Part shown: piece by piece, positions 17,485 through 44,786 of the stretch
How positions within the stretch are numbered: position 1 is the first letter of the stretch
Layout of the letters: each line of letters starts with the position of its first letter
DNA from: Prevotella communis
Lineage (GTDB): Bacteria > Bacteroidota > Bacteroidia > Bacteroidales > Bacteroidaceae
Length of the DNA stretch: 64,000 bases
Assembly: GCF_022024115.1 (NCBI RefSeq)
Contig: NZ_CP091792.1
Coordinates: 2,790,001-2,854,000 of the forward strand
Direction: 5' to 3'
Program-made: the position numbers and the translations under genes
The notes under the pieces: generated by a model
Seen by the model: only the letters and a program-made list of their open reading frames with translations
Database searches by the model: none
Told to the model about the DNA's origin: nothing

Positions 17485-19533
17485 TTATTTATACGGCAGG
17501 TAACAGTTCTGCGTGGTGATACCAGGGGCATTGTTCTGCAGTTTGGTGCTGAGCCACTTGTCACCGAAGTTGCCACCATAGAGGCCCGACTGGTTCTTGT
17601 GGAGTGCCAGACGTCGCAGGTCAGAGAAGCGAGTGCCCTCAAAAGCAAACTCCATGGCATACTCATCGCAGAGCAGGTCTTCCATCGCATTGATATAGTC
17701 GTCCTTGGTATAAGTAGTCAGACCGAGACTGAACTTACTGTTGATATCAGCCAACTTAGCAGCGAGGACATTACTGTAGCGATAAGTAGAATAGAGATCT
17801 TCCACAGCACCGGCGCCATGCATGTGGATACCCACGAACGATTTCTGCGCACCGTTTCTGAAAATCTCAGAGTTTTCCTGAGCCAGGAAAGGCAACTTCG
17901 TGGTCAGCAGTTCGTAAGACTCAGGCGTCAGGTAATACTTGTCATCCAAGTGCGACTGGGTCATATCGAGCACCTTATTGCCGTCGCCATCCAGAGAGTC
18001 GTTGCCCTCAGCATCCTTCAGATAAACCTCCAGATAACGATAGTTGGGCAGTTCGGTGTGCAGACCGTTCTTCAGCACGGCGAAGGCGGCATCAGGATAG
18101 CCCATGCGGTTGATAGCCTCGGCCAGGTGGAGCCACACCGTGGCGTTACGATACAGATAGACATAAGCCGTAGAGGGCTTGTAGGTATAGACGAAGGTGG
18201 AGTCGGCACCAACACCCTGACAGATGCTCTGGGCACGGGCATCACCCACAGCCACATTCTTCACAATCCAGTTGAAAGGCGTCACCTTTACCTGCTCAGT
18301 ATAGTAATAATACTGGGCACGACGGGCTGAATCGCAGTAGGCCTGTGAGGGCACAATCTGGATATCCTCGGTCTTGGGACAATCAAAGATACTCTCCATA
18401 GGATCGTTCACATCTACCGTAGATGTTCTCTCGGTACCATAGTAATTATAACCGTAAGAGGCAGGGATATCAGTCGTCTTACCCATGGTGTAGTTCACGG
18501 CCATGGGGATGTAAGAGATCACATCGCCTGGTGAGGCCGCATGTGTAAACGAGTTTTCCCAAATAGGCGTATTATTAAATATGGATGAATTCTTTCCGTC
18601 GTTAAAGTCGGCTGGCCATTCAGTGAAGTTCTTGAATATTGGACTATAGCGACTATAGGAGGGAGACATATAGTTGTTGTAGTTTACAGAGATATTGGAA
18701 GTATTCAACTGTCCCTCGTAGCGCAGGTACTGATAGTAGCAGGTGGCTGCTTTCTCGTACTCACCCAGTTCCAGGTAGATATCTCCCAGCACCACGTTGA
18801 AGGGCACGAAGCACTTCTTTGGTGAGAAGAATTTCTCGCCTCCGCCCCAGTTGAGCATACCAGCAGAACGTGAATTCTGGTTGAAGGTAGGCACAGCCAA
18901 CTGTTCGTCGGTATAGCGGGCTTTCAAGGTCTCCATCATCTTAGCTTCTTCTGTCAGGATAGTGCGATAGTCGGTCATCTGCGTATTAGCATTGATCTGA
19001 CCGATGGTGGTGACAGGGTCGGTGACATAAGGCACCTGACCATACTGACGAGTCAGTTGCAGGTAGGTCCATGCACGGAAAGATGCCACAGCGGCATACT
19101 CGTTGCACACCACATTACGGGCACCTGTGGCCAATGTGGTATCACGATGAGCCAGATAATAGTTACAGTTGTTGATTACCTTATAATAAAGGTACACACT
19201 GTCGTACTTATTCGTGGCATCGGCCGTAAACGATGCCAGGTTGCGCAGGTGAGTGGTAGCCTTGGAAGTGGGGCTCACCAGATCACCACGCATCTCGTTC
19301 TGATAGTAATACTGATCGGCCAGTTCCTGCATGGCCTGCATGATGCCATAGGCATAGAATACAGAGTCTGTCTTCTGGTCGAGGGCAGGGTCGAACAACT
19401 GGCGTGAGCTGTCTGACTCAAGCATATCTGAGCAAGAGGAGACCCCCATCCAGCCTCCCCCTATGAGGGGGAGGAGGATATAGACCATAAAACGACGTAA
19501 CTCCTTTGTCTTATTATATATATAATATTTCAT
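17485..19533 (-). CDS. SusD/RagB-family lipoprotein (second Sus pair)
   Basis: Surface glycan-binding lipoprotein that forms the lid of the SusC transporter. From the ATG at 19533 it has 682 residues; a further in-frame TTG at 19545 is less likely. The signal peptide (31 codons) comes wholly from the repeat element at 19441-19612 and is followed by Ser-Ser-Cys (lipid Cys34). The TPR-like SusD fold is seen in FRAWTYLQLTRQYGQVPYV (near 150), GDIYLELGEYEKAATCYY, WLHLAEAINRMGYPDAA and the C-terminal YAMEFAFEGTRFSDLRRLAL. Last gene of the seven-gene operon. Confidence 0.92.
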   Translation of the reverse strand: MKYYIYNKTKELRRFMVYILLPLIGGGWMGVSSCSDMLESDSSRQLFDPALDQKTDSVFYAYGIMQAMQELADQYYYQNEMRGDLVSPTSKATTHLRNLASFTADATNKYDSVYLYYKVINNCNYYLAHRDTTLATGARNVVCNEYAAVASFRAWTYLQLTRQYGQVPYVTDPVTTIGQINANTQMTDYRTILTEEAKMMETLKARYTDEQLAVPTFNQNSRSAGMLNWGGGEKFFSPKKCFVPFNVVLGDIYLELGEYEKAATCYYQYLRYEGQLNTSNISVNYNNYMSPSYSRYSPIFKNFTEWPADFNDGKNSSIFNNTPIWENSFTHAASPGDVISYIPMAVNYTMGKTTDIPASYGYNYYGTERTSTVDVNDPMESIFDCPKTEDIQIVPSQAYCDSARRAQYYYYTEQVKVTPFNWIVKNVAVGDARAQSICQGVGADSTFVYTYKPSTAYVYLYRNATVWLHLAEAINRMGYPDAAFAVLKNGLHTELPNYRYLEVYLKDAEGNDSLDGDGNKVLDMTQSHLDDKYYLTPESYELLTTKLPFLAQENSEIFRNGAQKSFVGIHMHGAGAVEDLYSTYRYSNVLAAKLADINSKFSLGLTTYTKDDYINAMEDLLCDEYAMEFAFEGTRFSDLRRLALHKNQSGLYGGNFGDKWLSTKLQNNAPGITTQNCYLPYK

Positions 19534-19612
19534 AATCTTTATCAATTAAGTATATTTTCTATTTGCATTTCCAACTACTCCCCTCCATTCAGGGAGGGGC
19601 AGGGGGAGGGTC
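19441..19612. mobile_element. MITE/REP-like element, copy 1 (172 bp), encoding a lipoprotein signal peptide
   Basis: Starts GACCCCCATCCAGCC and ends with the related inverted sequence GGGGCAGGGGGAGGGTC. Each end folds into a hairpin; the left one is CCTCCCCC (19454-19461) against GGGGGAGG (19467-19474). Read on the minus strand the left part contains the ATG (19533) and first 31 codons of the SusD gene. The right end lies at the SusC stop: its final C is the last base of the complementary TAG. No transposase and no clear target duplication are visible. Confidence 0.75.
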
Positions 19613-22600
19613 TACAGGTTTATCTTCACACCCATAGAGAAGATGCGTCCCTGGGCGATGGTGCCGCAGTCGATGCCTTGGTAGAGTTGATTATTGCCAG
19701 CGGCAAACTCAGGATCGCTACCCGTATACTTCGTCAAAGTGAAGAGGTTACGACCTTCGGCCCATACAGAGATACCCTGGAGCCATGACTGCCAAGCCTC
19801 GGGCATAGGCACCTGATAAGTCAGCATCACACTCTTCATACGCAGATAAGAGCCATCCTCAATCCAACGGTCAGAGAAGCGGTTGTTACCCATGGGGTCG
19901 CCATAGTTCAGACGAGGCAGAGAGGTCTGCTGACCCTCGTAACGCCAGTGGGCAATCTCGGCCACCTGCTGGTTGTAGAGCGTAGAACCACTATTCAGGA
20001 TAGAGCGCTGATAGTTGTACACATCATTACCCAGACTGTAGTTGAAGGTCATGCCCAGCGTGAAACGCTTCCAGTTGAGGTTAAGGAAGATATTTCCGTA
20101 GATATCGGGATTGGGATCGCCGATGATGGTCTTGTCGCGCTCGTCAATCTGGTGGTCACCGTTCAGGTCATCGAAAATCACGTCACCAGCCTGGAAATAC
20201 TGCTGAGCACCAGTCTCGTCAACCAGATAGAGGGCTGCAGCCTGTGCATCGGCAGTAGTAGAGAACACGCCCTTGGTCTTGTAACCATAGAACACACCGA
20301 CAGGGTTGCCTACAGACGTCAGGATATTGTCGGTGCCATAGATAGAAGATGTGTAGTTGCCATTGGCCAGTGCCTTCACCTCATTCTTGTAGTGGCCCAC
20401 GGTAGCACCGATCTCCAGATGCCAGTCCTTCAGTGAGATGGGCTTACCGTTGATACCAACCTCGAAACCAGTGTTGCGCAGTTCGCCGTCGTTGGTCCAG
20501 TAGTTATTGATACCACCGATAGGATTCTCAAAACTCTTCAGTGCCAGCAGGTCCTTGGTGTTGTGGATGAAGTAGTTGGCATTAAAGCCCAGACGGTTGT
20601 GCAGGAAGTTGGCCTGCAGACCGATATTGAACTTAGACGTGGTCTCCCACTTAATCTCCTCATTACCTACATTGGTGAGCTGTGTACCAATCTCCTGATA
20701 GTTGTAGCGAACAGCATTGAACGAAGTGCGTGCAGCATAGTTGCTGATGTCGTCATTACCACTCATATCGAAGCCCGCATTCAGGCGCAGGTAGTTGATA
20801 CCAGCATTCTTGGGGAACCAATCCTCGTTAGAGAGCACCCAGCCCAACTGCACGCTGGGGAAGATGGCCCATTTCACGCCAGCCAGTTTCACACCGCCGT
20901 TGGCATTAGAGCCAAAACGGCTGTTAGCCTCGGCCAGCAGAGAAACAGTAGCGAAGTATTTGTTCATGTAGTTATAGTCGCCAGAAGCATACCACTGCAT
21001 GTTCTTCCACACATCATCAACACCAGCTACAGTATCATAGACATCATTACCTGTAGCCAGTTTGGGGTTCTTATCATCCTCACCCTTGGTAGAGTACTGT
21101 GTTGACAGGTCGCTGTTGTCGTAAGAGAAATAGGTGTAGCGGAAACCACCCGTTGCAGCGATGGTGTGAGCACCGATTTTCTTTTTCCAGTCCACATGCG
21201 TATTACTCAGCACATTAATCTCCTTAGAGAAGATTGAGGCGGTCTTAGAATAAACAGTACCCAGGTTCTTAATGGCAAACGAAGGCATACCGATGTTGGG
21301 ACGGTAGTAGGCCTGTGAGTTGCGATTCAGATAATAGCTGAAATGAGAGGTCACTGACCAGTCACTGTTAATCTCATAGGTAGGAGCGATAGCCACGTTG
21401 AAGAATGTGTTCTCGTTGCGGTTCTTACGCTCACCGTTACCATTTCTCATCAGTGCCAAGGGGTTGGCCTGTGAATAGTTGCCTTCCTTCAGAGTGCTGT
21501 ACAAATCATCGGCATCGGCCAGCAGCGAGGTGAAGGCATTGATATTCTTGTTGTACTGATAGGGATTGAGCAGCGGACTCTTAATCAGCGACAGGAAGGC
21601 AGGCGAGGTGATCACGCCTGAGTTCAGGTCTTCAGCGATACCGTCGTCGAAGAGGTTCGTGTTTGTACGTGAGAACGACATGTCGAACTTCGTGGTGAGG
21701 TTCCACAGCAGACGGATGTCAGTATTGAAACGTACGTTGATACGGTCAAAACTGGTTGACTTGATATTCTTCATCGTCTGGATGTAGGCCACAGAGAGGT
21801 TGTACATACCGACATCATCACCACCCTGCACATTGATACTGTAGTTGTGGGTCAATGCAGTGCGATAGACATACTTGCTCCAATCAGTATCATTATGATA
21901 GGTATTATAATAGTAGCCGTCCTTAGCATCGTTGAGGAAATTGAACTGCAAGGGGTTCGTTGAAGAACCAATACGGTTCTGCACCTCAGCGATAGTACCC
22001 AACTGTTCCACAGCATAGTTACGGTACTGCGCGGCATTCATCATCTTAGGATAACTGGGCGTGAAGGTCCACCCTACTCCCAGTTTGGCATCGATACGAG
22101 TGGCCATGGAGTGACCGCGCTTGGTATCGATGATGATGACACCATTGGCACCACGGGCACCGTAGAGGGCAGTGGCATTCTTGAGCACCGTCACCTTGTC
22201 GATATCCTCAGGAGAGATGGTTGACAGCATATTGAAGATGTCGCCCAGATGCAGTGAACTGCGGCTCTGCTGCATGTCGAGCTCCACGCCATCAAGGATA
22301 ACGAGGGGCTGGGCATTGCCGTTGAGCGAACTGATACCACGGATAAACATGGCGGCTCCCTGTTCCAAGTTGCCGGAATGCATGTTCATACGGATGTCGC
22401 CACCCAGTTTGGCGGTCATCTCTTCATCGATAGACAGACCGTTGCCGTTAGAGACAAAACTGTTCTGAGCGGTGATGGTAGTACCATCGGCATACATCGT
22501 GGCAAAGGCATCACTCAACAGGTAGATGCTCACGCGCTGCTGCTCGTCACCAGGTTTGATGCTTACCTGCTGAGAGAGGTAGGTAGGTGTCTGCACGAAG

Positions 22601-22932
22601 AGGGCAGTAGTGAAGGTTGGCACCTTGATAAAAAACTTACCATCATCATCGGTCATGGCTACATAACGCTTGTCGTTAAGTGCCTGGATACGTACACCTG
22701 CCAAGGGCAGTTTGGTGGCGTCGTCAAACACAATACCTTGCACATTGCAGGTGGGGTTATTGTCAACAACCTGTGTGCGCTTAGGAGCTTTGAAACCAGT
22801 GGATTCCTCCTCGGCATCGACGTCGTCCTGAGCATAAGCCACCGAACATGCTGTCAAAGCAATGGCACAGAGTGAGAGTCTGAGACTCTGACGCTGTATG
22901 TAGTTATATATCATACTTTTCATCGTTGTCAT
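19612..22932 (-). CDS. SusC/RagA-family TonB-dependent outer-membrane transporter (second pair)
   Basis: Imports oligosaccharides across the outer membrane with its SusD partner. The 1106-residue protein has a signal peptide ending SVAYA, an acidic stretch, a carboxypeptidase-regulatory-like domain at about 62-150 (CNVQGIVFDDATKLPLAGV), a plug with MFIRGISSLNGNAQPLVILDG and ATALYGARGANGVIIIDTKRG, and a large beta-barrel ending in GRIFSMGVKINL, as expected for an outer-membrane C-terminus. The ATG at 22932 overlaps the TAA of the upstream FAS1 gene (TAATG). The stop codon TAG is completed by repeat element copy 1. Confidence 0.94.
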   Translation of the reverse strand: MTTMKSMIYNYIQRQSLRLSLCAIALTACSVAYAQDDVDAEEESTGFKAPKRTQVVDNNPTCNVQGIVFDDATKLPLAGVRIQALNDKRYVAMTDDDGKFFIKVPTFTTALFVQTPTYLSQQVSIKPGDEQQRVSIYLLSDAFATMYADGTTITAQNSFVSNGNGLSIDEEMTAKLGGDIRMNMHSGNLEQGAAMFIRGISSLNGNAQPLVILDGVELDMQQSRSSLHLGDIFNMLSTISPEDIDKVTVLKNATALYGARGANGVIIIDTKRGHSMATRIDAKLGVGWTFTPSYPKMMNAAQYRNYAVEQLGTIAEVQNRIGSSTNPLQFNFLNDAKDGYYYNTYHNDTDWSKYVYRTALTHNYSINVQGGDDVGMYNLSVAYIQTMKNIKSTSFDRINVRFNTDIRLLWNLTTKFDMSFSRTNTNLFDDGIAEDLNSGVITSPAFLSLIKSPLLNPYQYNKNINAFTSLLADADDLYSTLKEGNYSQANPLALMRNGNGERKNRNENTFFNVAIAPTYEINSDWSVTSHFSYYLNRNSQAYYRPNIGMPSFAIKNLGTVYSKTASIFSKEINVLSNTHVDWKKKIGAHTIAATGGFRYTYFSYDNSDLSTQYSTKGEDDKNPKLATGNDVYDTVAGVDDVWKNMQWYASGDYNYMNKYFATVSLLAEANSRFGSNANGGVKLAGVKWAIFPSVQLGWVLSNEDWFPKNAGINYLRLNAGFDMSGNDDISNYAARTSFNAVRYNYQEIGTQLTNVGNEEIKWETTSKFNIGLQANFLHNRLGFNANYFIHNTKDLLALKSFENPIGGINNYWTNDGELRNTGFEVGINGKPISLKDWHLEIGATVGHYKNEVKALANGNYTSSIYGTDNILTSVGNPVGVFYGYKTKGVFSTTADAQAAALYLVDETGAQQYFQAGDVIFDDLNGDHQIDERDKTIIGDPNPDIYGNIFLNLNWKRFTLGMTFNYSLGNDVYNYQRSILNSGSTLYNQQVAEIAHWRYEGQQTSLPRLNYGDPMGNNRFSDRWIEDGSYLRMKSVMLTYQVPMPEAWQSWLQGISVWAEGRNLFTLTKYTGSDPEFAAGNNQLYQGIDCGTIAQGRIFSMGVKINL

Positions 22933-24779
22933 TATTCATTAGAAGCGTTAGTCCAGTAATCGTTATACTCCTTTGGTACGAGATAAACACCTGCCACACG
23001 CATCTGCTGGTCGTACTTCTTACGGTTAGCAGAAGAGGTATAGCTCTTGGTGTGCATCATCATCAGACTGGGATAAGCATCCAGGCCGTAGTAGCACACA
23101 GGGAAGGTGAACTCACCCAGGTCGAAGACATTCACACGACCGGGGTCGCCGATGCAAGTCAGTTTCTTAGTATCCGTACCATTGTCTGTGGTCATCTCCA
23201 GATCCTTAGCGGCTCCCTGAGGCAATACAGTGAGCTGCTGCTTGTTGGCAGCATCCGTCCAACTGAGGTAGAAGCGCAGGTAGTAAGGCTTCACATCAGC
23301 CGCAGGTTCCTCCACCTGAGCAGGAACGGTAACAACATAGATATGATAGGTAGCAGAGCGAACGCCTTCGAGGGCGAAGTTGAACTCTGGCTTACCTGTA
23401 GTACCCTCGACATTGGCACTATCCACAGCCACGTATGAGAAGAAACGAGAAGTTTTGGGGAAGAGCCACTGATGGAACATCGCAGGCACCTTCGAGAAGA
23501 GACTGTCGCGACCTGCCAGACTATCCAGAGGGATATTGTGCGTGGTCAACTTGTTCACCTTCATCGTTGCGTCAGGACGCATAGTTCTAATCACCGGATT
23601 ATAACTGTTCCATGAGTCGAAAGTCAGCGAGTCGATAGTACGTGTGATACCATTACTCATCTCATTGATGGCAAGCGTGTGGTCCAGCACCCTATCGGCA
23701 TGACGCAAATAACGTCCGTTCGTAGTAACCACCGTGTCCTTGCTTGTCAGTGTGCCCTGACCAAACAGCGGACCGTTCTGAGGATAGCTGGCAGAGAACA
23801 CCAGGTTGTTTACAATATTGCGGCAGGTCAGCGAGTCCTGCAGCTCGCTGGTTGCCTCAGAAGCCTTGTCGGCCTTGGCATCGGTAGCCTTGATAGAAGA
23901 GGCAACAGTGCTCTTCTTTGCAAGATCCATGTAGTCCAGCTTGGCAATATAGTTGTAGCAGGGATTGATGGCTGAGTAAGCAGCGTTCCATGCCTTGTCG
24001 TTGGGAATCAGCATGCAGAATGTGCTATCCTCATCTTCCAGGTCGGCTTTCATAATAGTACGAATCACGTTGTTACGCTTCTTCATCACAGAGTCCAGAT
24101 AGGTCTGCTTACCATCACGCAACGGACCAATGACAGAGGCATTGACATCGAGGTAGTACTCGTCATATTTCTGGATATACTTCTTGATGGAGTCGCATCC
24201 CTGCAGGTTGTCAATATTCTCATAGAGGTTATTATGGAACTCAGACATACCGTTGAGCTTGTGCATCACACCATTATTCGAAGCGATATTGACAGCGTTA
24301 TAGCTGTAGCCGTCGAATGAGGTCTGAGTGAAGGGATGGTGCTTCATGTTGAGCGACACAATAGTGGTGCTGTCGAGCGCAGCAGAAACAGGATAGTTAT
24401 ACTCCGTGATATGCTGCTGCATAAACTGCTTCAGCACGGTAGCACTGTCGCTGGCCATCAAGCGGTTATACTCTGCATCGCTGATAGCATCATTAACGGG
24501 TGCCCATACGGTGTAGAAACGAGGACTGTTGAGAACCTCCGAGAAACTGCATTTACGGGCAAGATCAGCAAAACGGGTCAGCTGCTGATCGTTGGAGATA
24601 TTCTCCCACAACGTGTTGTTGGCTCCAGTCTGGTCACCACCAAACACGCCAGGCACCGTATTGTAGTCATCATAGTCGGAGCAGGAGACCCCCACCCAGC
24701 CTCCCCCTGTGAGGGGGAGGAGTATATAGACCATAAAACGAAGTAACTCCTTTGTTTTATTACATATTAGATGTTTCAT
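22932..24779 (-). CDS. FAS1 (fasciclin)-domain lipoprotein, third of the operon
   Basis: The 615-residue protein starts with a signal peptide of 31 codons supplied by repeat element copy 2, then Ser-Cys (lipid Cys33). FAS1-type motifs are FADLARKCSFSEVLNSPRF followed by YTVWAPVNDAI near residue 90, and a second divergent unit with DSTFCMLIPNDKAWNAAYSA near 260. FAS1 domains mediate adhesion or binding. In this setting a surface glycan-binding or adhesin role is inferred. Translationally coupled to the following SusC. Confidence 0.82.
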   Translation of the reverse strand: MKHLICNKTKELLRFMVYILLPLTGGGWVGVSCSDYDDYNTVPGVFGGDQTGANNTLWENISNDQQLTRFADLARKCSFSEVLNSPRFYTVWAPVNDAISDAEYNRLMASDSATVLKQFMQQHITEYNYPVSAALDSTTIVSLNMKHHPFTQTSFDGYSYNAVNIASNNGVMHKLNGMSEFHNNLYENIDNLQGCDSIKKYIQKYDEYYLDVNASVIGPLRDGKQTYLDSVMKKRNNVIRTIMKADLEDEDSTFCMLIPNDKAWNAAYSAINPCYNYIAKLDYMDLAKKSTVASSIKATDAKADKASEATSELQDSLTCRNIVNNLVFSASYPQNGPLFGQGTLTSKDTVVTTNGRYLRHADRVLDHTLAINEMSNGITRTIDSLTFDSWNSYNPVIRTMRPDATMKVNKLTTHNIPLDSLAGRDSLFSKVPAMFHQWLFPKTSRFFSYVAVDSANVEGTTGKPEFNFALEGVRSATYHIYVVTVPAQVEEPAADVKPYYLRFYLSWTDAANKQQLTVLPQGAAKDLEMTTDNGTDTKKLTCIGDPGRVNVFDLGEFTFPVCYYGLDAYPSLMMMHTKSYTSSANRKKYDQQMRVAGVYLVPKEYNDYWTNASNE

Positions 24780-24852
24780 ATTATTATATTTTTAATTTTC
24801 AATTTAATGTCTAACCACTCCCCTCCCTGCAGGGAGGGGTCGGGGGTGGGTC
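24687..24852. mobile_element. MITE/REP-like element, copy 2 (166 bp), encoding a lipoprotein signal peptide
   Basis: Same structure as copy 1: GACCCCCACCCAGCC at the left, GGGGTCGGGGGTGGGTC at the right, hairpins CCTCCCCC/GGGGGAGG and CCCCTCCCTGCAGGGAGGGG. The start ATG (24779) of the downstream FAS1 gene and its first 31 codons lie inside, ending exactly at the left tip. The right tip is one base from the stop codon of the upstream gene (TAA at 24856-24854). Confidence 0.75.
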
Positions 24853-24853
24853 T

Positions 24854-27139
24854 TTAATACCAGTCCTCAGACATAGACTGACTGTTCACGATATCCAGAG
24901 GTACCAGTTCCACGAAGTCGAACGACCAACCCAGGTTGGTATCGTTCACCAGGTTCTTGATGCGCAACCAGTAGTCCTTACCCTGCTCAAAACGCTGGGC
25001 AGTGATAATGCGGCGCAGCATCATCGTACCATAACCAGTCTCTGAACGACAGCTGGTAGAACCGATAATCTGACTAGCTGCAGAATAGATATCGTCTGGC
25101 GAATAACTCAGAGGATCGGTAACAGAATTGTATGTACCACGAGAGAAAGATGCCGGAGCACGCATATAGCCACGTACATGCATACGCTGGTCGCTCTCTA
25201 CGCCACAGTCTGAAGTCTCGTCGTCGGCGCGGTTAATCAGATCCTCATAACCGATGGTAGCATCCTCGTAAGGATTAGCACAAGCATCGAAAGGAATACC
25301 TACAGCCACCATGTCCGACTGCTTGGGTGAGTTACCCAGGTAGAACTGCATCAGGCCACCACGAGCCATTGGCGGATAGATGATACGCAACTCGTAGTCA
25401 CCTGTCGGCACGTGAGGCAGTTTGATGGCGAAGTCATACACGTCCCATCCCTGGAACTGGTCTGAGTTGTGTGCACGCCAAGCACCCATCACGTTGAAAC
25501 GGAGCAGTGTGCCGGGGTTGTAGCATACGATATTATCGAAATAGGTGTTGTGGAAAGCCACACGGTTACCGTCACCACCACCATTCATTGAACTAACCTC
25601 GGCAGCTGTTGCACCACGCAGACCATTATTGATCAGCTCATAGAGGAAGGTAGAAGAATCCAGGCGCAGACGCTCGTGGAGGCCGTCCTTGGCATTCTGG
25701 TCGTACTTCAGGATACCCTTGATACGGTGGATATAACCATTCAGTGTCTCCACGCTGTTATCACGATCCACGGGCACGCCCTTGAAGATGAGCTGGTGGT
25801 CCTCATCACCATCGCCCAGGGCACAGAGTCCCAGTTTCTTTGTCAGCGTATTGTTTGACAAATAGCGGTTCAGCCACAGGTTCTTGGTGCTCTTAGGATT
25901 CGTCTCCCACACCTTCAACAAGGTATTGGGCAACATTGTCTCAAAATACTCCTGAGGTTCATAGCCGAAGCAGAAGTTCCATGAGCCATCCGTCTGCTTG
26001 TTCTTCTCATAGACAATACGGTCGATAGGCATACCTGCACGCAAGATGTGGTAAGCCACAAACATATTCACCACGTTGAAGGGGTTCGTATAGTCGTCGC
26101 CCGTGCTGATGGTGATATTCTTCTCGTTGATATAGTCATACCAAGCACCACAGTTGCCATACCACTCCACGCACTTTGCCTTCAGGTCGTCAAAGTTATT
26201 GATACCTGCAGCACGGAACACGTCGTCGGTCTCAGCAAAGACGGTCCATTTAATCATACACTCCTTAGGATAATAAAGTGGGTTGCCGTCACGGTCATTA
26301 TGGTTGGTACCCAGGTCATAGGTCTTCACCGTGCCGTCGGCATTATACTTCTTCTCAATCAGCAGTGTATCCGTATAACCAGTAGCCTCAAGAGCAGCAT
26401 AGAAGATGCTCAGATCCTTCTCACCCTCTACACGCAACTGGTCGTCTGTTGTACGGTCTGAACGAGGAATCACATTCGAGCATACATGAAGCACACCATT
26501 GATGGCCTCGATATCACCGTCAATGATAGCTGAGACATCGTTCAGACTGGTGAGTCCCACGAAATCAGGGAAATGGGTATTGTTATACTCGTTGTCCAAG
26601 AACACACCCACACGGATGCTACGACCGGTCTTCATCGTGGTCCATGTCGTCGTAGTACCGTCGAGGTCAACCTGCAGATGCTCTTCACCAGAGAGGTGGA
26701 AGCGTGCAATGTCCTCACAAAGCGAGTCGGACATCAGATCTACCTTTGACATCACATCCAGGTTTTCCCAGTTGCCATCCTCCTTAATACCATTATGTTT
26801 AACCTTTGCCTTTGAAATGAGGTACGACTCGTCATTATACAGACTGTCGAGATAAACATTCACACCATCATTCAACGGAGCAAAACAGGTGTACTCACCA
26901 TAGGTTGCCATATACTTATCGAAGCCACCCTTCTCAAGGATACGGTAGAAAGCAGTCAGATCGCTTCTGTCGCGCAGCAACTCTGCAATAGTCTTATCGT
27001 CTGTAGAGAAGAGGTTTGAGCCGTCGGGTTCCTCAGTACAAGAGGAGACCCCCACCCAGCCTCCCCCTATGAGAGGGAGGAGTATATAGACCACAAAACG
27101 AAGCAACTCCTTTGTTTTATTTATAATTATTTGTTTCAT
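24854..27139 (-). CDS. FAS1 (fasciclin)-domain lipoprotein, second of the operon
   Basis: The 761-residue protein has a signal peptide from repeat element copy 3 (31 codons) followed by Ser-Ser-Cys (Cys34). A FAS1 unit covers about 45-220: LTAFYRILEKGGFDKYMATYG, YTCFAPLNDGVNVYLDSLY, and the closing GVLHVCSNVIPRS. A second FAS1-like region lies at about 235-490 (FYAALEATGYTDTLL ... GYIHRIKGIL). The C-terminal part from 500 resembles a beta-sandwich (YDFAIKLPHVPTGDYELRI) and may bind carbohydrate. The function is inferred. Confidence 0.82.
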   Translation of the reverse strand: MKQIIINKTKELLRFVVYILLPLIGGGWVGVSSCTEEPDGSNLFSTDDKTIAELLRDRSDLTAFYRILEKGGFDKYMATYGEYTCFAPLNDGVNVYLDSLYNDESYLISKAKVKHNGIKEDGNWENLDVMSKVDLMSDSLCEDIARFHLSGEEHLQVDLDGTTTTWTTMKTGRSIRVGVFLDNEYNNTHFPDFVGLTSLNDVSAIIDGDIEAINGVLHVCSNVIPRSDRTTDDQLRVEGEKDLSIFYAALEATGYTDTLLIEKKYNADGTVKTYDLGTNHNDRDGNPLYYPKECMIKWTVFAETDDVFRAAGINNFDDLKAKCVEWYGNCGAWYDYINEKNITISTGDDYTNPFNVVNMFVAYHILRAGMPIDRIVYEKNKQTDGSWNFCFGYEPQEYFETMLPNTLLKVWETNPKSTKNLWLNRYLSNNTLTKKLGLCALGDGDEDHQLIFKGVPVDRDNSVETLNGYIHRIKGILKYDQNAKDGLHERLRLDSSTFLYELINNGLRGATAAEVSSMNGGGDGNRVAFHNTYFDNIVCYNPGTLLRFNVMGAWRAHNSDQFQGWDVYDFAIKLPHVPTGDYELRIIYPPMARGGLMQFYLGNSPKQSDMVAVGIPFDACANPYEDATIGYEDLINRADDETSDCGVESDQRMHVRGYMRAPASFSRGTYNSVTDPLSYSPDDIYSAASQIIGSTSCRSETGYGTMMLRRIITAQRFEQGKDYWLRIKNLVNDTNLGWSFDFVELVPLDIVNSQSMSEDWY

Positions 27140-27213
27140 AATCTTTAATTATTTGTTTTCATTTTACACGTCTGCCTACTCCCCTCCATTCAGGGAGGGG
27201 CAGGGGGTGGGTC
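27047..27213. mobile_element. MITE/REP-like element, copy 3 (167 bp), encoding a lipoprotein signal peptide
   Basis: Left end GACCCCCACCCAGCC, right end GGGGCAGGGGGTGGGTC. The left hairpin has one mismatch (GAGAGGG). The ATG at 27139 and 31 codons of the FAS1 gene are inside. The right tip reaches the SusD stop codon: its terminal C is the last base of the complementary TAG (27215-27213). Over the first 79 bases it differs from copy 2 at only about four positions. Confidence 0.75.
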
Positions 27214-28973
27214 TAATATTTCGCAGCTGATTTGTAGACAGGGTTCTGCTGAAGGTTGGTGTTCAACTCTACCTCGTCCTGATTGATAGGCATATAGAGA
27301 TAGCGCTCATCACGCATCTTTGCCTTCATAGCAGAAGGAACAGCATACTTGCGCAGGGCCAGTTCAAAGAATTCCGAACTATTTGGCACCACCGCATAGT
27401 CCTTGTCAGACAGTTTCTTTGTCAGATCAGCCTTGGTTGTCATGTGGCGATAGTTATAACGCATCAGGTCAAACCAACGCTTACCCTCAAAGCACAGTTC
27501 ACGTGCACGCTCAGCCAGTACCAACGACTCCATCTTATCCTTATAAGTGCTATACTTCATAGCGTATGACGACTTGTTGGCATCCGACAGCGCACGGTCG
27601 TTCACAAACTTACAGATATCGAAGGCAGCCTGATTGTATGTCTCATCGGCTGCTCGGCTGTCAGCCAGTGCTGCCTGCTTCTCAAACTCATAGAGCTGAA
27701 CAAGGGCCTCGGCCTTCATCAGCATCACGTCTGTAAGACGATACAGAATCCAGTTCTGCATCACGTTGGCACGTGTCTCGCGATGACTGTCGGCAGCATT
27801 GTTCACACCGGCAGAGACGGTAGCAACGAACTTACGTACGCCAAACTGCTCAACACTTGAGCTGGTGGCATCGTAAAGATACTCGTAGAGACGCTGGTCC
27901 ACACTATTGAACCAAATGCCAGAACCGTCGGACTTCACCGTACCGTAGAGGGGTGCTGCCTTCAGGTAGCCATAGCTGTTGCTGCTGGCATTGTTGTAAC
28001 GGTAATACATCTGGTCCAGTCCCTTGTTGGTAGCATTTGAATTGCGGAACTGCAGTTCAAAGATGCTCTCGTCAGCATTCTGACCATTCTGACCGAAGAG
28101 GTCGCTATACATGTCATCATAATCAGACAGGTAATAGTCCTTCTCTACATCATCCTCGCCCCAGCGACGACGCTGTCCACTCTCCTCGTAAGCCTGCTTC
28201 TTAGCCTTGATAATGGCATCGCAATAGTCCACACACTTCTGATAGTCGGCAGCATCGCGGTTCACAGAAGCACGCCACAGGTAGATATCAGCCAGCACAG
28301 CATTGATACCATCCTTGTTCAGGTAGCCCTTATCGCGCCAGTCGCCATAGGTATTACCAGGAATAGCATTCTTTGAAGCCTCCTCCAAATCGCGGATACA
28401 CATTGTGAGCACAGAGTCGGGCGTAGCCTGAGGAGCATTGAGGTCGGCACTGCTGTTCATATAAGCACCCGGTGTCACGGGAATATCGTGGAACACCTTT
28501 GTCAGATAGAAGTAACAGAAAGCTCTCAACGCCAATGCCTGGGCCTTGTTGGCCTCATAGTCACCACGAGTATAGTCAGGGTCAACGGCAATCACGTTCT
28601 CAGCCTTTTCCAACACCAAGTTACAATAGTTAATTGCCGAGTAGAAAGGATACCAAGAGGTAAATGCATTCTCGGTCTCGATATTGAGAGAATAAATCTG
28701 CTGCAGGGCTGTACGATAGGCAGCACCAGTAGGCAGTCCGGTTGTCATATTCAATTCGTCAGAGCGGAAGTCGCCCCAAACAATCATATTGCGTATAGCA
28801 GTCTCGTCGCGCAACTGTGCATAGGCAGTTGACACCACGGCATCCACCTCGCTCTTCTTCTGCCAGAAGTCATCATCGACAGTCTTATTGTCGGGCAGGA
28901 TAACTGTGTCAACACAAGAGACCATCGCAACACTTGCCAGCATAACAGAAAATATCTTTTTCATAATTTTCAT
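27213..28973 (-). CDS. SusD/RagB-family lipoprotein (first Sus pair)
   Basis: A 586-residue surface lipoprotein with an ordinary signal peptide (MKIMKKIFSVMLASVAMVSC, lipid Cys20; an ATG three codons on is equally possible). SusD features include FWQKKSEVDAVVSTAYAQLRD near residue 40, AQALALRAFCYFYLTKVF near 145, LADIYLWRASVN and the C-terminal LVLAERARELCFEGKRWFDLMRYN near 490. It follows its SusC by 26 bases. Its signal peptide is unrelated to the three repeat-encoded ones. Confidence 0.94.
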   Translation of the reverse strand: MKIMKKIFSVMLASVAMVSCVDTVILPDNKTVDDDFWQKKSEVDAVVSTAYAQLRDETAIRNMIVWGDFRSDELNMTTGLPTGAAYRTALQQIYSLNIETENAFTSWYPFYSAINYCNLVLEKAENVIAVDPDYTRGDYEANKAQALALRAFCYFYLTKVFHDIPVTPGAYMNSSADLNAPQATPDSVLTMCIRDLEEASKNAIPGNTYGDWRDKGYLNKDGINAVLADIYLWRASVNRDAADYQKCVDYCDAIIKAKKQAYEESGQRRRWGEDDVEKDYYLSDYDDMYSDLFGQNGQNADESIFELQFRNSNATNKGLDQMYYRYNNASSNSYGYLKAAPLYGTVKSDGSGIWFNSVDQRLYEYLYDATSSSVEQFGVRKFVATVSAGVNNAADSHRETRANVMQNWILYRLTDVMLMKAEALVQLYEFEKQAALADSRAADETYNQAAFDICKFVNDRALSDANKSSYAMKYSTYKDKMESLVLAERARELCFEGKRWFDLMRYNYRHMTTKADLTKKLSDKDYAVVPNSSEFFELALRKYAVPSAMKAKMRDERYLYMPINQDEVELNTNLQQNPVYKSAAKY

Positions 28974-32452: not shown

Positions 32453-32489
32453 AATTATCAATTTTCAATTATCAATTTTCAATTATTAA
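32453..32489. repeat. AT-rich tandem repeat between FAS1 and SusC
   Basis: Alternating CAATTATC and AATTTTC units (ATTATCAATTTTCAATTATC and onward) fill the gap between the first FAS1 gene and SusC and include the FAS1 stop codon. Shorter versions of the same motif occur near 24785-24805 and 28978-28992. No hairpin of note. Confidence 0.6.
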
Positions 32490-35365
32490 TACTTCCCGTT
32501 GCTGTTATAGCACAGAGGTGTACCAATGCCGTGAACGGTGACAAAAGAAGAGGTCTCGATAGCCTTGTACTTACCATACGTAGCATTAGTCTTCTCTACT
32601 GTCGTGATATCACGTGCTATGAGGTTAGCCAGGTTTGAAGAGGCATTCACAGTCACCACCTTGCCAGAGGCATCCTTCACATTGAGCTTGTCGCCACCAC
32701 CAGTCACGATCAGTGTCTGAGCGATACCAAGAGCGTTTGAGCAGAAGGTAGAGAACGAAGGCTCAGGCGTGGTGAGTCCTGTATTGGGATCGTAATTCTT
32801 GAAATAGCGATCAGCAAAGAGCGAGCTATTCTGAGTGTGATAACGCACGAAGCGTGACATCTTATCCAACTGAGCCTTCACGTAGGCAGCAGCAGCTTCC
32901 TGAGAAGCGAAGCCATACTGGTCCTTCACGCTCTCCCAGTCGTTGACGATAGCCAGCACATCCTTCCACTTGGGCAGACCCATATCCTTCTGTGCCTTCA
33001 CCATAGCCTCGTAGGTAGGTGCATAAACGGTGTAGTTGTAGGCACTGAGCATACCCCAGTTATCGTTGTCATCGATGACGCGGTAAGCCTTCATCTTTGT
33101 CTTTTTCTGTGCATCCTTATCGCTGTCGCTAACGATACCTGCAAAGGTGTAGAGGTCTTCGTTATTGAACTGCAGACAGAAGTTCAGGAAGTGGTCGTAT
33201 TCAGGAGCAGCCGCGTCATAGTCGGCATCCTCGTCGTAGAACTCGGAACGCGACAGGGTCTGCATCACGCTGGTGATAGTAGGCTGGAGCGGATAGTTCA
33301 GACGATAAACAGTACCGTTCTCAATCTTGGCATCAGCACTGTTGGCATCAAAGGTCTCAGTGATGGTTGACCACTGTGAAGCATCCTTCTGCTGCAGTCC
33401 GCCTGCCACCTTATTGCCGCTGACGATGACAGCACCGCCATGCTTGGTCTTATAATACTTATTACCATAGAGGCCATACTGCGCCTTACCCTTACCAGTC
33501 TCTGTAGAGTCGGCAAGCACAATGGTGCAGTAGTCCAGCATGTCCTTAATCTGACTGTTGAAGATACCACTCTCGATATTGATATCCTGTGCACCGGCAG
33601 TCTCAACATACGAGCTGAGTTCGTTGTAGGGACCACTCTGATAGATATATTTCTTCACCAGCACGTGGAAAGAACCGTCGGCCTGGGGGTCGAAGCGGAA
33701 GCGCAAGCCCTTCAGTCCGTCGTCGTCCTTCACAGAGGTGGGGTCGATAACAATGAACTGTGTCTCATTATCTGTAGGAACAAACAGGCCATAGCGGGCC
33801 TTCATTGAGAGCAGATAGTAGTACATATCGGCACCCAGTTTAGAAGGTGTACCAGCAGTAGTCTGGTGGTCGTTGAGCATCTCACCCATCGTGCGCATAT
33901 CCTTATATACAGAAGCAGGACCGAGCACAGAGTTATACAACTTTGGTCCGAAGAGCTTACCCATCTTGTAGATGACGCCATTGTTGGCAATCGTCACGTC
34001 GTAGTTGCCGTTGCTCTTCTTGTTGATATCATCCTTTGTCACATCGAGAAACTCGAAGGCATCGTTCTGAACAGTAGAGAACGAACTGGGCACTGTCTTT
34101 GTGAGATAAGGTTTCATCACATTGTTCAGCACGCTGGCAAAGATTGAAGGGTCGTTATTGTAAACAGCATCGAGGTGCGCATTGAGGTTGGCTGCAGAAA
34201 TCTCGAGTGAAGGCACACCCAAGTTCTTCAGGATATAAGCAGCCTCCTTCAGGAAATACTCCTCTACGGCCTTGTCGTCAGGAGCCAGGAAGGCAGCAAT
34301 CTCTGCATTATCGTCGCTGCTGCCGCCTTTCAGCGTGGGGTTATAGTTGTTCCAACCTGGGTCGAAGTTGAGCAACTGGTTGTCGGCTACCGTCATACCA
34401 CGTACGGGCTGGGCCAACTTGGCACGCTGAGAGTTCTTACTCAGATAGCGGATAGCAAACACGGTGTCCTGTGTGGCTGCGTTTGATTCGCTGTTGTACT
34501 GCTCCGTCAGCGTCATGTCGGCATCGGGGAAGCTGTAGTAGTCCAGCATACGAGAGATGTACTTCGTATCATCGCCGGCACGCAGCACCTCTGCCATGTT
34601 ACCAGGATTCACCAGTACCTCGTCAAGCTGATGGATATAACCGTTTTGGCAGACTACGTCGCCCTTGATCACCTTGTGGTTGAAGATATAAGCATCACCC
34701 TCGTTATACGCATGACCAGTAAGCACCTCGAAGTCGCTCTCGTTGCCTGCGATGGTCATATTGTTGTTCAGCATATACTCGCCCGTGAGGTGCACCATAG
34801 GAGCCACGGTATTGTCGAATACAGCAAGCATAGAATTGCGGTCGGCCGTCTGGAAACGAGAAAAATACTTGTTGTTTGCAGGCATCTGCTCGGCCTTGAA
34901 AGGTGCCACAGCATAAGTCAGACGCATGTTGGTGCCGTGCTTCACCAGCTGGCCCTGCAACATATTGCCTGCGCTGTTCTGGCTGTTTGAAAGTGTACCC
35001 ACCAGAATGGCATTGTCGAGCATAGTAGAGAAAAGCAACTCAGCTTTCTGAGCATGTGTCAGCTCTTCGTAGCTGCTGACACCAAACTTGTTGTTACCGC
35101 CTTCAAAGAATTTGGCGAACGCTTCATCATTGGCAGGGAAGATAGTCTTACTACCCGTTCTACTCAGCACATCGGCATAACCCAGATCATCAATCAGTTT
35201 GCAATACGTCTTAAACGTACCCTGCAGTTCCTTGGGCTGCTGAAGCTCTTTGTAGATACTCTCGCCAAGCCATGATGGCAATTCTCCCTCAGGTACCAAG
35301 AAGTCCTTTGAGCAGGACCCTAGGCCTAAGCACATAAGGGATGCGTATAAAAAGAGTTTTTTCAT
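32486..35365 (-). CDS. Large FAS1 (fasciclin)-domain lipoprotein, first gene of the Sus operon
   Basis: A 959-residue lipoprotein: MKKLFLYASLMCLGLGSC with lipid Cys18. The first FAS1 unit at about 50-255 shows FKTYCKLIDDLGYADVLSRTG, TIFPANDEAFAKFF and NGYIHQLDEVLVNPG. Two or more further FAS1-like units follow (around 270-470, with NNGVIYKMGKLF, and around 690-950, with YNYTVYAPTYEAMVKAQ). Its place at the head of a SusC/SusD operon suggests a surface-exposed adhesin or glycan-binding protein. Confidence 0.83.
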   Translation of the reverse strand: MKKLFLYASLMCLGLGSCSKDFLVPEGELPSWLGESIYKELQQPKELQGTFKTYCKLIDDLGYADVLSRTGSKTIFPANDEAFAKFFEGGNNKFGVSSYEELTHAQKAELLFSTMLDNAILVGTLSNSQNSAGNMLQGQLVKHGTNMRLTYAVAPFKAEQMPANNKYFSRFQTADRNSMLAVFDNTVAPMVHLTGEYMLNNNMTIAGNESDFEVLTGHAYNEGDAYIFNHKVIKGDVVCQNGYIHQLDEVLVNPGNMAEVLRAGDDTKYISRMLDYYSFPDADMTLTEQYNSESNAATQDTVFAIRYLSKNSQRAKLAQPVRGMTVADNQLLNFDPGWNNYNPTLKGGSSDDNAEIAAFLAPDDKAVEEYFLKEAAYILKNLGVPSLEISAANLNAHLDAVYNNDPSIFASVLNNVMKPYLTKTVPSSFSTVQNDAFEFLDVTKDDINKKSNGNYDVTIANNGVIYKMGKLFGPKLYNSVLGPASVYKDMRTMGEMLNDHQTTAGTPSKLGADMYYYLLSMKARYGLFVPTDNETQFIVIDPTSVKDDDGLKGLRFRFDPQADGSFHVLVKKYIYQSGPYNELSSYVETAGAQDINIESGIFNSQIKDMLDYCTIVLADSTETGKGKAQYGLYGNKYYKTKHGGAVIVSGNKVAGGLQQKDASQWSTITETFDANSADAKIENGTVYRLNYPLQPTITSVMQTLSRSEFYDEDADYDAAAPEYDHFLNFCLQFNNEDLYTFAGIVSDSDKDAQKKTKMKAYRVIDDNDNWGMLSAYNYTVYAPTYEAMVKAQKDMGLPKWKDVLAIVNDWESVKDQYGFASQEAAAAYVKAQLDKMSRFVRYHTQNSSLFADRYFKNYDPNTGLTTPEPSFSTFCSNALGIAQTLIVTGGGDKLNVKDASGKVVTVNASSNLANLIARDITTVEKTNATYGKYKAIETSSFVTVHGIGTPLCYNSNGKY

Positions 35366-38425: not shown

Positions 38426-38479
38426 AAGTTTTGTTTTTAGTTGATATTTAAAAATGAATAATATTCGTAGTTTTCGGCT

Positions 38480-38555
38480 GCAAAGATAGTGCTTTTCTTG
38501 ACTTACCGCAAGAAAAGCACTACCTAAAATTTGACTTTTTCCTATACTTTTTGTA
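38480..38555 (-). promoter_or_regulatory. Promoter and operator A (76 bp, shared with the GH28 promoter)
   Basis: Minus strand: TTG (38511-38509), 20 bases, TATCTTTG (38488-38481). A perfect 13-bp inverted repeat (AGTGCTTTTCTTG / CAAGAAAAGCACT, 38489-38501 region to 38522) covers -33 to just before -7. Upstream are two TAGG-A type hexamers spaced 18 bases (38526-38521 and 38544-38539). The whole block aligns without gaps to 44641-44716 with 68 of 76 positions identical. Confidence 0.8.
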
Positions 38556-38560
38556 CTCTA

Positions 38561-43243: not shown

Positions 43244-44623
43244 TCACGTCATCAAGCAGCACGGCAGGCCGATAGTCAGGAGTTCATAGCGGAAAGTCAC
43301 ATCATTCACATACAACCCATCTACATGACGGGCATAGAGTCCATAGGCAGGCGTCCATCCAGCGAATTTCGGCTCAGGATAGTTCGTGCCTTGTTCACGA
43401 TAGTTCTTATCTGCCAAGTCCTTTGTGCCATCGCCTTTAAAGTAAAGACGAATGTTTGACAACCACACATTCTTCACAGGAACGCCAGGCATACCTGTAA
43501 CGATGATGCTGCAAAGCGAGTCGCAGTCATCGGCTATGACATTGGATATCTGGATATCGCGAGCCGTAGAAGGTGTCGTCACCTCCTTGGGACCTCGATT
43601 TCGACAGCCCGTAGTAATATAAATAGGATAATGATGTACGTGACTCATCGTGATGTTCGACACCACGATATTCTCCATCCGGCCCTGATCCACCTCCTCG
43701 AAAGCCAGTCCACTACTATACATAAAGGTGCAGTTGGTAAGTGAGATATTGCGATAGCCGCCATTGCTCTCCGTGCCCAACTTAAAGCGTCCGCACACCC
43801 AGTTGACAGGTTCGGGGATATAGGTGCCGTCAAGCAACGTGCCACATTTATAGCCTGTGATATTACAGTTGCTGATAGCGATATGCTCACAGAGCACAGG
43901 CTTCTTCAGGGCATACGAGGACTTGAGCACTAAGGCATCGTCACGCGGTGTGTTGATACGACAATTGGTAATGGTCATATATTTACAACAGTCGATATCG
44001 AAGCCATCACGATTCGTGTCGATAGTTACATTATCAATGGTTGAGAGGTCGCATCCTGTCATGATAATGCCAAAGTGACCTCCACGATAGATGGTGATGT
44101 CACGAATCGTCACCTGGCGACATAGTTTCAGAGCGATAGCCTTGTCGCCTGTGCCGATAGAGCCACCCTGGATATTACCGCTATTCTCTGTATCCTTGTG
44201 CGTGAGTCCCTTACCGTCAATCATGCCGTGACCAGTGATGCTGACGTTTTTCTCGCCTTCAGCCCAGATCAGCGAATTATGGAAATAGGTATGTCCGCCA
44301 TCCTGATACTCTGGGAAATCGAACGGCTCTGATGCGTCGTAGGCATTCATCTTTGCAGGTGCTGCCAAGATGGTGCAGCCAGCCGAAAGATGCAGGTCGA
44401 TATTGGACTTCATCCTGATACTACCACATAGATAGGTGCCTGCAGGCAGTAACACCTGCCCTCCTCCATCGCGAACAGCAGCCTCAATGGCTGCATTAAT
44501 CGCAGGTGAGTCCAGCGTTTGTCCGTCACCTTTAGCACCAAAATCACGCACGTTGTAAACGCCTGTGGCAGAAACTGCGCCACAGCACAAAAGAAAGAAT
44601 AGTTGTATCAGTAGTTGTTTCAT
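43244..44623 (-). CDS. GH28 polygalacturonase-type hydrolase with C-terminal frameshift
   Basis: GH28 enzymes hydrolyse galacturonan or rhamnogalacturonan. The right-handed beta-helix protein has a signal peptide, the N-terminal YNVRDFGAKGDG, catalytic segments with Asp in NRDGFDID and RDDALVLKS, and KLGTES. The ATG at 44623 is chosen because the -7 box lies at 44649-44642, inside a longer frame reaching 44644. The last codons read ELLTIGLPCCLMT-stop. Restoring one base near 43279-43282 gives the usual ending PDYRPAVLLDDVKND and on to GVEQVIRK, stopping at 43176. So the gene is shortened by about 22 residues with a garbled end, either a real mutation or a sequencing error. Activity may survive because the catalytic helix is complete. 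Confidence 0.88.
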   Translation of the reverse strand: MKQLLIQLFFLLCCGAVSATGVYNVRDFGAKGDGQTLDSPAINAAIEAAVRDGGGQVLLPAGTYLCGSIRMKSNIDLHLSAGCTILAAPAKMNAYDASEPFDFPEYQDGGHTYFHNSLIWAEGEKNVSITGHGMIDGKGLTHKDTENSGNIQGGSIGTGDKAIALKLCRQVTIRDITIYRGGHFGIIMTGCDLSTIDNVTIDTNRDGFDIDCCKYMTITNCRINTPRDDALVLKSSYALKKPVLCEHIAISNCNITGYKCGTLLDGTYIPEPVNWVCGRFKLGTESNGGYRNISLTNCTFMYSSGLAFEEVDQGRMENIVVSNITMSHVHHYPIYITTGCRNRGPKEVTTPSTARDIQISNVIADDCDSLCSIIVTGMPGVPVKNVWLSNIRLYFKGDGTKDLADKNYREQGTNYPEPKFAGWTPAYGLYARHVDGLYVNDVTFRYELLTIGLPCCLMT

Positions 44624-44640
44624 AGACGTAGTTGTTGGGT

Positions 44641-44716
44641 GCAAAGATAGTGCATTTATTGACTTAAAGCAAGAAAAGCACTACCTAAAATTTGCCTTTT
44701 ACCTATAGTTTTTGAA
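44641..44716 (-). promoter_or_regulatory. Promoter and operator B of the GH28-PL11 unit
   Basis: Minus strand TTG, 20 bases, TATCTTTG (44649-44642). Two exact TAGGTA hexamers (44687-44682 and 44705-44700) are spaced 18 bases upstream of the -33 box. The inverted repeat present in element A is kept with two mismatches in one arm. Gapless 68/76 identity to 38480-38555 suggests a common regulator binding both. Confidence 0.8.
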
Positions 44717-44786
44717 CAAACACGTTAAGAGAAAGGTATTATCTGCAACATTATTCTTATTTCCACGACGTGGGATAAGAAAACGA

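Follow-up and report, generated by a model that had tools for sequence, protein, structure and literature searches.

The stretch analysed here, below called the window, comprises 64,000 nucleotides (nt) of Prevotella communis (NCBI RefSeq assembly GCF_022024115.1, contig NZ_CP091792.1, positions 2,790,001 to 2,854,000) and carries on its minus strand seven genes in the order FAS1c - SusC1 - SusD1 - FAS1b - FAS1a - SusC2 - SusD_A, which are called an operon because of their common strand and short gaps. Three of these, the lipoprotein genes SusD_A (17485..19533), FAS1a (22932..24779) and FAS1b (24854..27139), begin with copies of one repeated DNA module that extends from the stop codon of the upstream gene to the lipobox cysteine and thereby includes the 5' leader, the start codon and the whole signal peptide. 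SusD_A belongs to the Pfam family SusD_RagB (PF07980) and FAS1a and FAS1b belong to Fasciclin (PF02469), in agreement with the view of the initial annotation that SusD and FAS1 are not homologous. Equally as annotated, the signals of SusD1 (27213..28973, minus strand; MKIMKKIFSVMLASVAMVSC) and FAS1c (32486..35365, minus strand; MKKLFLYASLMCLGLGSC) are unrelated to the repeat-encoded ones; the SusD1 signal is hypervariable among orthologues too, while the FAS1c signal is kept among close orthologues and serves as an internal control.

Sequence and translations agree with the coordinates, start codons and codon counts first given for the three genes, with ATG codons at 19533 (SusD_A), 24779 (FAS1a) and 27139 (FAS1b) on the minus strand and exactly 31 codons up to the Gly-Val ends at 19441, 24687 and 27047. 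The encoded peptides, MKYYIYNKTKELRRFMVYILLPLIGGGWMGV, MKHLICNKTKELLRFMVYILLPLTGGGWVGV and MKQIIINKTKELLRFVVYILLPLIGGGWVGV, have the described Gly-Gly-Gly-Trp step and are continued by host-encoded Ser-Cys in FAS1a and Ser-Ser-Cys in SusD_A and FAS1b; the supposedly shared string NKTKELLRFMVYILLPL is exact in FAS1a only, with one substitution in each of the other two. The left arm initially taken as the repeated element is present as well, but the repeat is longer and spans 172-177 nt, reaching from the stop of the preceding gene to the lipobox Cys, with 81-84% pairwise identity. Module 1 (19437..19613, SusC2 stop to SusD_A Cys) is 82% identical over 177 nt, and module 3 (27043..27214, SusD1 stop to FAS1b Cys) 84% identical, to module 2 (24683..24858, FAS1b stop to FAS1a Cys), far above chance (E = 6.4e-48 and 1.7e-42).

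All modules, on the minus strand, have the same layout: a GC hairpin arm at the stop of the preceding gene is followed by AT-rich sequence, in which the start codon lies, and then by another GC arm in inverted orientation, translated in frame as LPLxGGGW(V/M)GV. The upstream arms, placed by sequence and alignments at 19576..19613, 24816..24853 and 27176..27214, directly follow the upstream stop, and in modules 1 and 3 the module end even overlaps the TAG of SusC2 (19614-19612) and of SusD1 (27215-27213). The downstream arms at 19440..19474, 24686..24720 and 27046..27080 read LPLIGGGWMGV, LPLTGGGWVGV and LPLIGGGWVGV, respectively. The hydrophobic core had been ascribed to the GC hairpin itself; this holds for about half of it, but the front half of the best 9-residue hydrophobic stretches (MVYILLPLI, FMVYILLPL and VVYILLPLI) derives from AT-rich DNA outside the arm. 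In the predicted RNA fold of module 2 (-68.6 kcal/mol, z -5.7) the two arms pair together and the start codon is unpaired. A reading of the element as a non-coding RNA has been rejected, as the Rfam search of the window at gathering thresholds gave 0 matches and the window is without tRNA or tmRNA.

Judged by sequence, a basic n-region, a hydrophobic core and a small residue before the Cys characterise all three peptides as lipoprotein signals, so that processing by signal peptidase II and lipidation of the three proteins are to be expected. The residue at -3 is Gly (..VGVSC), which is less canonical at this lipobox position than Leu.

The cassette is not restricted to this operon. When the exact arm pattern was run against the contigs of GTDB, 46 stretches were retrieved, and all 28 matches in Prevotellaceae (26 stretches; not all independent, as some are orthologues) read as lipoprotein signal peptides in the same frame into a lipobox, as compared with none of 20 in Alphaproteobacteria (19 stretches) and none of one in Marinimicrobia. 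The ending TGGGTGGGGGTC is part of the exact pattern, which therefore picks out arms of the cassette type; those Prevotella arms encountered here that are not signals end in GGGAGGGGGTC (L018, L031, L041) or run into a stop in that frame (L040, L051). Allowing up to 3 mismatches, signals are found in 41 of 44 distinct Prevotella copies, 40 by a looser rule (frame 0 open for 60 nt, with a Cys no more than 4 codons away) and L050 by eye, with L040, L041 and L051 as the non-signals; the looser rule is passed by 4/29 distinct alphaproteobacterial copies. The variability by codon position is lowest at position 2 in the cassettes (0.155 versus 0.259 and 0.273) and flat in the alphaproteobacterial arms (0.345, 0.358, 0.361). 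As an observation in its own right, Devosia, Hyphomonas, Arsenicitalea and other Alphaproteobacteria (L067-L109) have the same 34-nt GC hairpin core without a signal reading.

In 150 genomes sampled from a wider set for the genus, the arm occurs in 14 genomes at 31 places. The carriers represent at least seven protein kinds, SusD, FAS1, FKBP, TIG, BACON, Peptidase_Mx1 and DUF4973/BT_3044-like, as typed in part on nine chosen, not randomly drawn, proteins. Among relatives, similarity does not stop at the arm but covers 9 or more codons preceding it. In one genome (G129), SusD, Peptidase_Mx1 and BACON genes within about 5 kb all have MYT/MCK..MKRKSFQHKWS..LLLPIIGGGW, a trio which on its sequence is best read as a separate local spread. 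The initial proposal of a portable signal-peptide cassette on non-homologous proteins is thus borne out by the 28 Prevotellaceae arms, by the range of carrier proteins and by a difference between two strains.

This difference is seen in Prevotella communis E15-14 (NZ_CP091794.1; L166), which is gap-free alignable with the window at 98.9% identity over 16,041 bp and at 98.8% over the next 3,369 bp, so that the two are apparently strains of one species. The break between these matching flanks extends from the SusC2 stop to the SusD_A Cys and contains 178 nt in the window and 91 nt in E15-14, with the GC-hairpin cassette (MKYYIYNKTKELRRFMVYILLPLIGGGWMGVSSC) in the former and an AT-rich leader with the unrelated signal MITKAKYFIGGICMICGLASC in the latter. 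One joint lies at the last SusC2 codon with its stop; the other falls on TCTTGCTCAGATATGCTT, with the lipobox codons TCTTGC. Between window and E15-14, the modules of FAS1a and FAS1b show a difference of 1 nt each (FAS1a: 1 in 171 nt). A like block difference exists at FAS1b in another genome (G112), where the flanks are 93.6 and 93.7% identical. At the beginning of the SusD leader of E15-14 stands a 7-nt repeat of which the window's genome has many copies; AT-rich repeats of this kind, AATTGAT/AATTGAC, have 150 overlapping matches genome-wide versus 11 for the reversed control (e.g. G000:C1:172309-172370).

Homologues place the strain difference in a wider frame. The lists for the three queries hold the best 120 of 378, 1963 and 759 homologues, 72-100% identical to the query. 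Among these best 120 homologues of FAS1a, SusD_A and FAS1b, the cassette motif is found by rule in 2, 6 and 2 (the rule misses P0130, a SusD), and a Cys at the conserved mature start preceded by at least 11 residues in 118, 115 and 118, those failing being cut or short entries or a miss of the rule (P0240). The signals that precede this conserved Cys are for the most part quite different among the listed homologues, as they are in E15-14 and G112, and by eye the same alternative signals recur on unlike proteins. A protein 99% identical to the window SusD (P0124) has the n-region, that is the first residues, of the FAS1a signal and represents a third allele. As the listed homologues, mostly without the cassette, already have the Cys at the mature start, the cassette would replace an existing signal, so that one signal seems to be swapped for another and lipidation is not added. 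The initial idea that the repeat spreads lipidation is therefore not upheld; neither is the spread of a surface-export signal, since the acidic residues after the Cys belong to the host gene and lie outside the cassette.

The same contrast between variable signal and constant mature protein can be expressed in scores at 13 close loci. For the 75 nt before the Cys, orthologues of SusD1, FAS1b, FAS1a and SusD_A have mean pairwise scores of 10.7-11.3, to be compared with 9.5 for random cross-locus SusD x FAS1 pairs, 29-46 for the first 75 mature nt and 40.2 for the FAS1c signal among close orthologues. Pairs scoring under 25 amount to 70/78, 73/78, 62/66 and 63/66 for the four genes versus 0/66 for FAS1c.

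Signals that differ between orthologues resemble each other within operons. At the 13 close loci, the signal DNA of SusD versus FAS1 scores 21.5 within the operon versus 10.2 after permutation of loci (0/2000 permutations) and the 5' leader 13.9 versus 10.0 (0/2000), with no excess for the FAS1c control (930/2000). Pairs scoring at least 30 make up 16/101 within loci versus 1.6% of 3000 random cross-locus pairs and occur at 8 of the 13 close loci. In 16 chosen pairs the Cys codon lies 92-224 nt downstream of the start of the common blocks, whose ends fall between -14 and +15 nt relative to it, as exemplified by SusD_A and FAS1b of L118 (94.7% over 152 nt). The table behind these figures includes one gene per family and locus; it has no rows for L132, L136, L141, L143 and L144, leaves out FAS1b of L131, which is masked by a spurious opposite open reading frame, and L135 FAS1c is without a fitting Cys. 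Another observation at L118 is that SusC2, a TonB-dependent receptor with a non-lipoprotein signal, and SusD1 of the same operon both have MKKLSRIKRMANGITVIGYxLLVIGM; since a SusC here shares its signal with a SusD, exchange may extend past lipoproteins.

The sharing does not depend on the GC hairpin. Eighteen loci, sorted by peptide motifs as having signals without GGGW, GWG or GGG, give 17.3 versus 10.0 for the signal (0/2000) and 0/2000 for the leader, with the FAS1c control at 697/2000. This set supersedes a 19-locus set (17.44 versus 9.88, 0/2000) that had included L117 with its hairpin signal; sorting of loci by GC blocks was too strict and flagged L137 only. The notion that GC hairpins are necessary for sharing, and with it the role of the GC repeat as essential agent in the initial annotation, has been rejected on this ground.

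What is then the hairpin? In the 3.57-Mb genome, which is one contig, the complete cassette was found at the three window junctions only, and the AT-rich middle with the start codon is at E <= 0.001 likewise confined to the three window copies. Related arms, on the other hand, occur at at least 24 other merged genome sites, of which 22 are readable. The number is a lower bound, as arm sites were picked by hand and 40 of 56 candidates scored; the 25 merged sites include 444182, a match to the AT-rich middle and not to an arm, three are without a locus, and weak matches above E 0.02 are partly omitted, including one arm-like match at 26645. At 20 of the 22 non-window sites the arm lies inside an open frame of at least 190 codons, a count in which not all frames need be genes and some sites are mutual copies. 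Conserved genes contain arms in frame, either internally or at their start, at L019, L032, L020 and L010, and we take the arm-carrying genes to be RimO-like, RsmB/F-like, helicase-like and PaaK-like genes and that of an ABC transporter ATPase. Signal peptides account for 4 of the 25 family sites examined in this genome, the three window modules and L015, presumably an efflux-type lipoprotein, where the arm is used in another register within the signal peptide (STPLHIGRSLGVGLLLSLMLTSC / MKIKMNKILKKKASTPLHIGRSLGVGLLLSLMLTSC). The proposed search with the arm thus gives a divided answer: the cassette sub-family consists of signals, but the wider family mostly does not, though many of its members lie in open frames.

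Some further repeat features can be noted. At L020 (about 1501-2010; genome 3113197-3113701) a short open reading frame (MSYKTAIPNSYGVLKAHARENRKNPTPAETILWDCLRNNR...), which we take to resemble a DUF559-type endonuclease, is located between two inverted arms, perhaps as the repeat's autonomous partner. A further signal type built on a GC arm, YILPSLTGRGWGVGLL, is found at L134 and L137 on genes including FAS1 and SusD, together with a variant whose hairpin contains GDLVLKRTKSS. Apart from the leader modules, the window has a 96-nt direct repeat (38461-38556 and 44622-44717; 86%) with an inverted repeat inside each copy, near two gene boundaries.

The explanation that we consider probable is that the DNA from the upstream stop to the lipobox Cys is an exchangeable module, copied among lipoprotein genes of the operon and the genome and swapped between strains by recombination, the hairpin cassette being one kind of such a module. 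As part of the same explanation, and with the same confidence, one arm of a Prevotella palindromic family would have been recruited into a signal peptide, read in that one of three forward registers which looks hydrophobic on inspection. The resulting leader would then have spread over SusD, FAS1 and other lipoproteins. With the module would come an initiation region and a signal, the Cys and the acidic residues that follow staying with the host gene, and recombination within these limits would leave the neighbouring coding sequences on both sides intact. Any hydrophobic signal ending at the host Ser-Cys would be cut off, and many exchanges should be tolerated because the mature lipoprotein is unchanged. 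The position of the joints suggests recombination as the mode of movement, with joining by microhomology at the stop codon and at TCnTGy lipobox codons; ordinary homologous recombination could then spread alternative modules within the species.

A number of observations weigh against this explanation. The 1 kb upstream of the E15-14 joint holds 24 differences as compared with 175 in 16,041 bp overall (about 11 per kb); other 500-nt bins of the alignment reach 16-18 differences, the first 500 nt downstream of the joint have 3, and in view of the 24 upstream differences part of the flank may have been imported as well. Divergence among the three window modules amounts to 16-19% at a strain difference of about 1%, so that the SusD_A module is no recent copy of its neighbours. 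The relatives are for the most part fragmented assemblies, and sharing (score at least 30) is found in 10 of 27 testable loci and in 2 of 14 distant ones. The controls are not fully flat either: the mature starts show a slight within-locus excess (9, 2, 16 and 26 of 2000 in four sets of loci), perhaps from the common TGC-TCN-GA start, and the FAS1c signal control is 39/2000 in all 30 loci. Furthermore, PF14322 identifies 14 SusD genes in this genome, and of these the window SusD_A alone shares its signal, which rejects a spread of the cassette over many SusD genes of this genome and indicates that exchange is not rampant among them.

Alternatively, the unit could be an expression module, whose hairpins and leader control how each operon gene is translated or how its mRNA decays and whose signal peptide hitch-hikes. 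The shared blocks take in the leader, the predicted fold is strong with an unpaired start codon, and selection on surface exposure is unlikely given that signal peptides are cleaved; on the other hand, E15-14 manages at the same place with an AT-rich leader lacking the GC hairpin, and we regard this reading as possible, though doubtful. Independent insertion of arms, by which arms land randomly in gene starts and those with a hydrophobic frame in lipoprotein signals survive in the absence of copying, is unlikely as a general account. It is favoured by the several registers or arm types that appear as signals, including LPLxGGGWVGVSC, the STPLHIGRSLGVGLLLSLMLTSC register of L015, the LPSLTGRGWGVGLL type (L134 as DNA; L137 and L138 as peptide only) and the APLTLGGVGGGCLLTSC type (L117, DNA), and by arms at the starts of the apparently non-secreted genes L010 and L020. 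However, similarity that continues for 9 or more codons ahead of the arm and within operons into the 5' leader, as well as the sharing of leaders without hairpin-type signals, speaks for copying; independent insertions may have been the route of first arm entry into signals, not of their spread.

Transposition can be envisaged as well. The GC element would then be a miniature inverted-repeat transposable element (MITE) with the inverted ends AGACCC...GGGTCT, moving as a whole with start codon and signal peptide, each cassette representing one transposition. That the module ends coincide with two inverted arms resembling terminal inverted repeats, which pair in the predicted RNA fold, and that related arms exist at 24 other merged sites would fit. 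Nevertheless, the two sites compared (E15-14, G112) offer no empty site, the alternative being another leader (91 nt with its own signal in E15-14), operons without hairpin-type signals share their signals alike and the AT-rich middle is confined to the window copies, which makes this account quite improbable. Ordinary inheritance, with common signals as strongly conserved remnants of an ancient whole-gene lipoprotein duplication, can practically be dismissed: FAS1a and FAS1b, having the Fasciclin domain in common, may be distantly paralogous, but SusD and FAS1 belong to different Pfam families, few of the listed homologues have the motif and the block difference to E15-14 speaks against gene duplication.

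Returning to the exchangeable module, a more far-reaching version can tentatively be formulated, to which we give limited credence: Prevotella (perhaps Bacteroidota) signals might constitute a mobile pool of leader modules, partly derived from palindromic or AT-rich repeats, that circulate within and between genomes by dedicated or highly favoured exchange and tune the output of each operon gene while leaving the mature protein untouched. The usual view is that a signal peptide evolves together with its gene. In the present case the signals evolve as modules of their own, which follow the history of the operon or the strain and not that of the protein; this calls for caution, as N-termini become unsafe for orthology or start-site calls. 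A repeat turned into an apparent export signal equally points to a way, itself open to testing, of generating new export signals out of repeats; the difference between the two strains allows a direct test, and the modules might provide a natural set of interchangeable secretion leaders for Bacteroidota.

Among known systems, REP/BIME and MITE families have paired inverted GC-rich hairpins adjoining stop codons and are classically extragenic; the hairpins by stop codons are alike, but here they are translated. Rickettsia palindromic elements, according to a review, are palindromic repeats in frame inside unrelated protein genes (PMC10969869), similar to the many arms in open frames described here, whereas in Prevotella one arm type has been specialised as a signal peptide; the term 'signal peptide' is absent from the text of that review. 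The nearest analogue found are the vpma/vsp genes of Mycoplasma, a phase-variable family switched by the Xer1 recombinase, in which the 5' untranslated region and the signal-peptide portion are conserved among genes otherwise differing (PMC2268961). Leader and signal are likewise shared here, but among unrelated families (SusD, FAS1, FKBP, BACON, metallopeptidase) and with several competing module types. The host residues CSDYDD, CTEEPD and CSDMLESD resemble the SDDDD-type lipoprotein export signal (LES) of B. fragilis (PMC5080379), and this signal lies outside the cassette in the Prevotella modules and belongs to the host gene. The best-ranked matches among open-licence papers contain no report on shared or swapped signal peptides among unlike Bacteroidota lipoproteins. 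What is new in comparison with these systems is the combination of a palindromic repeat with shared-leader behaviour on unrelated proteins, differing between two strains of what is apparently one species.

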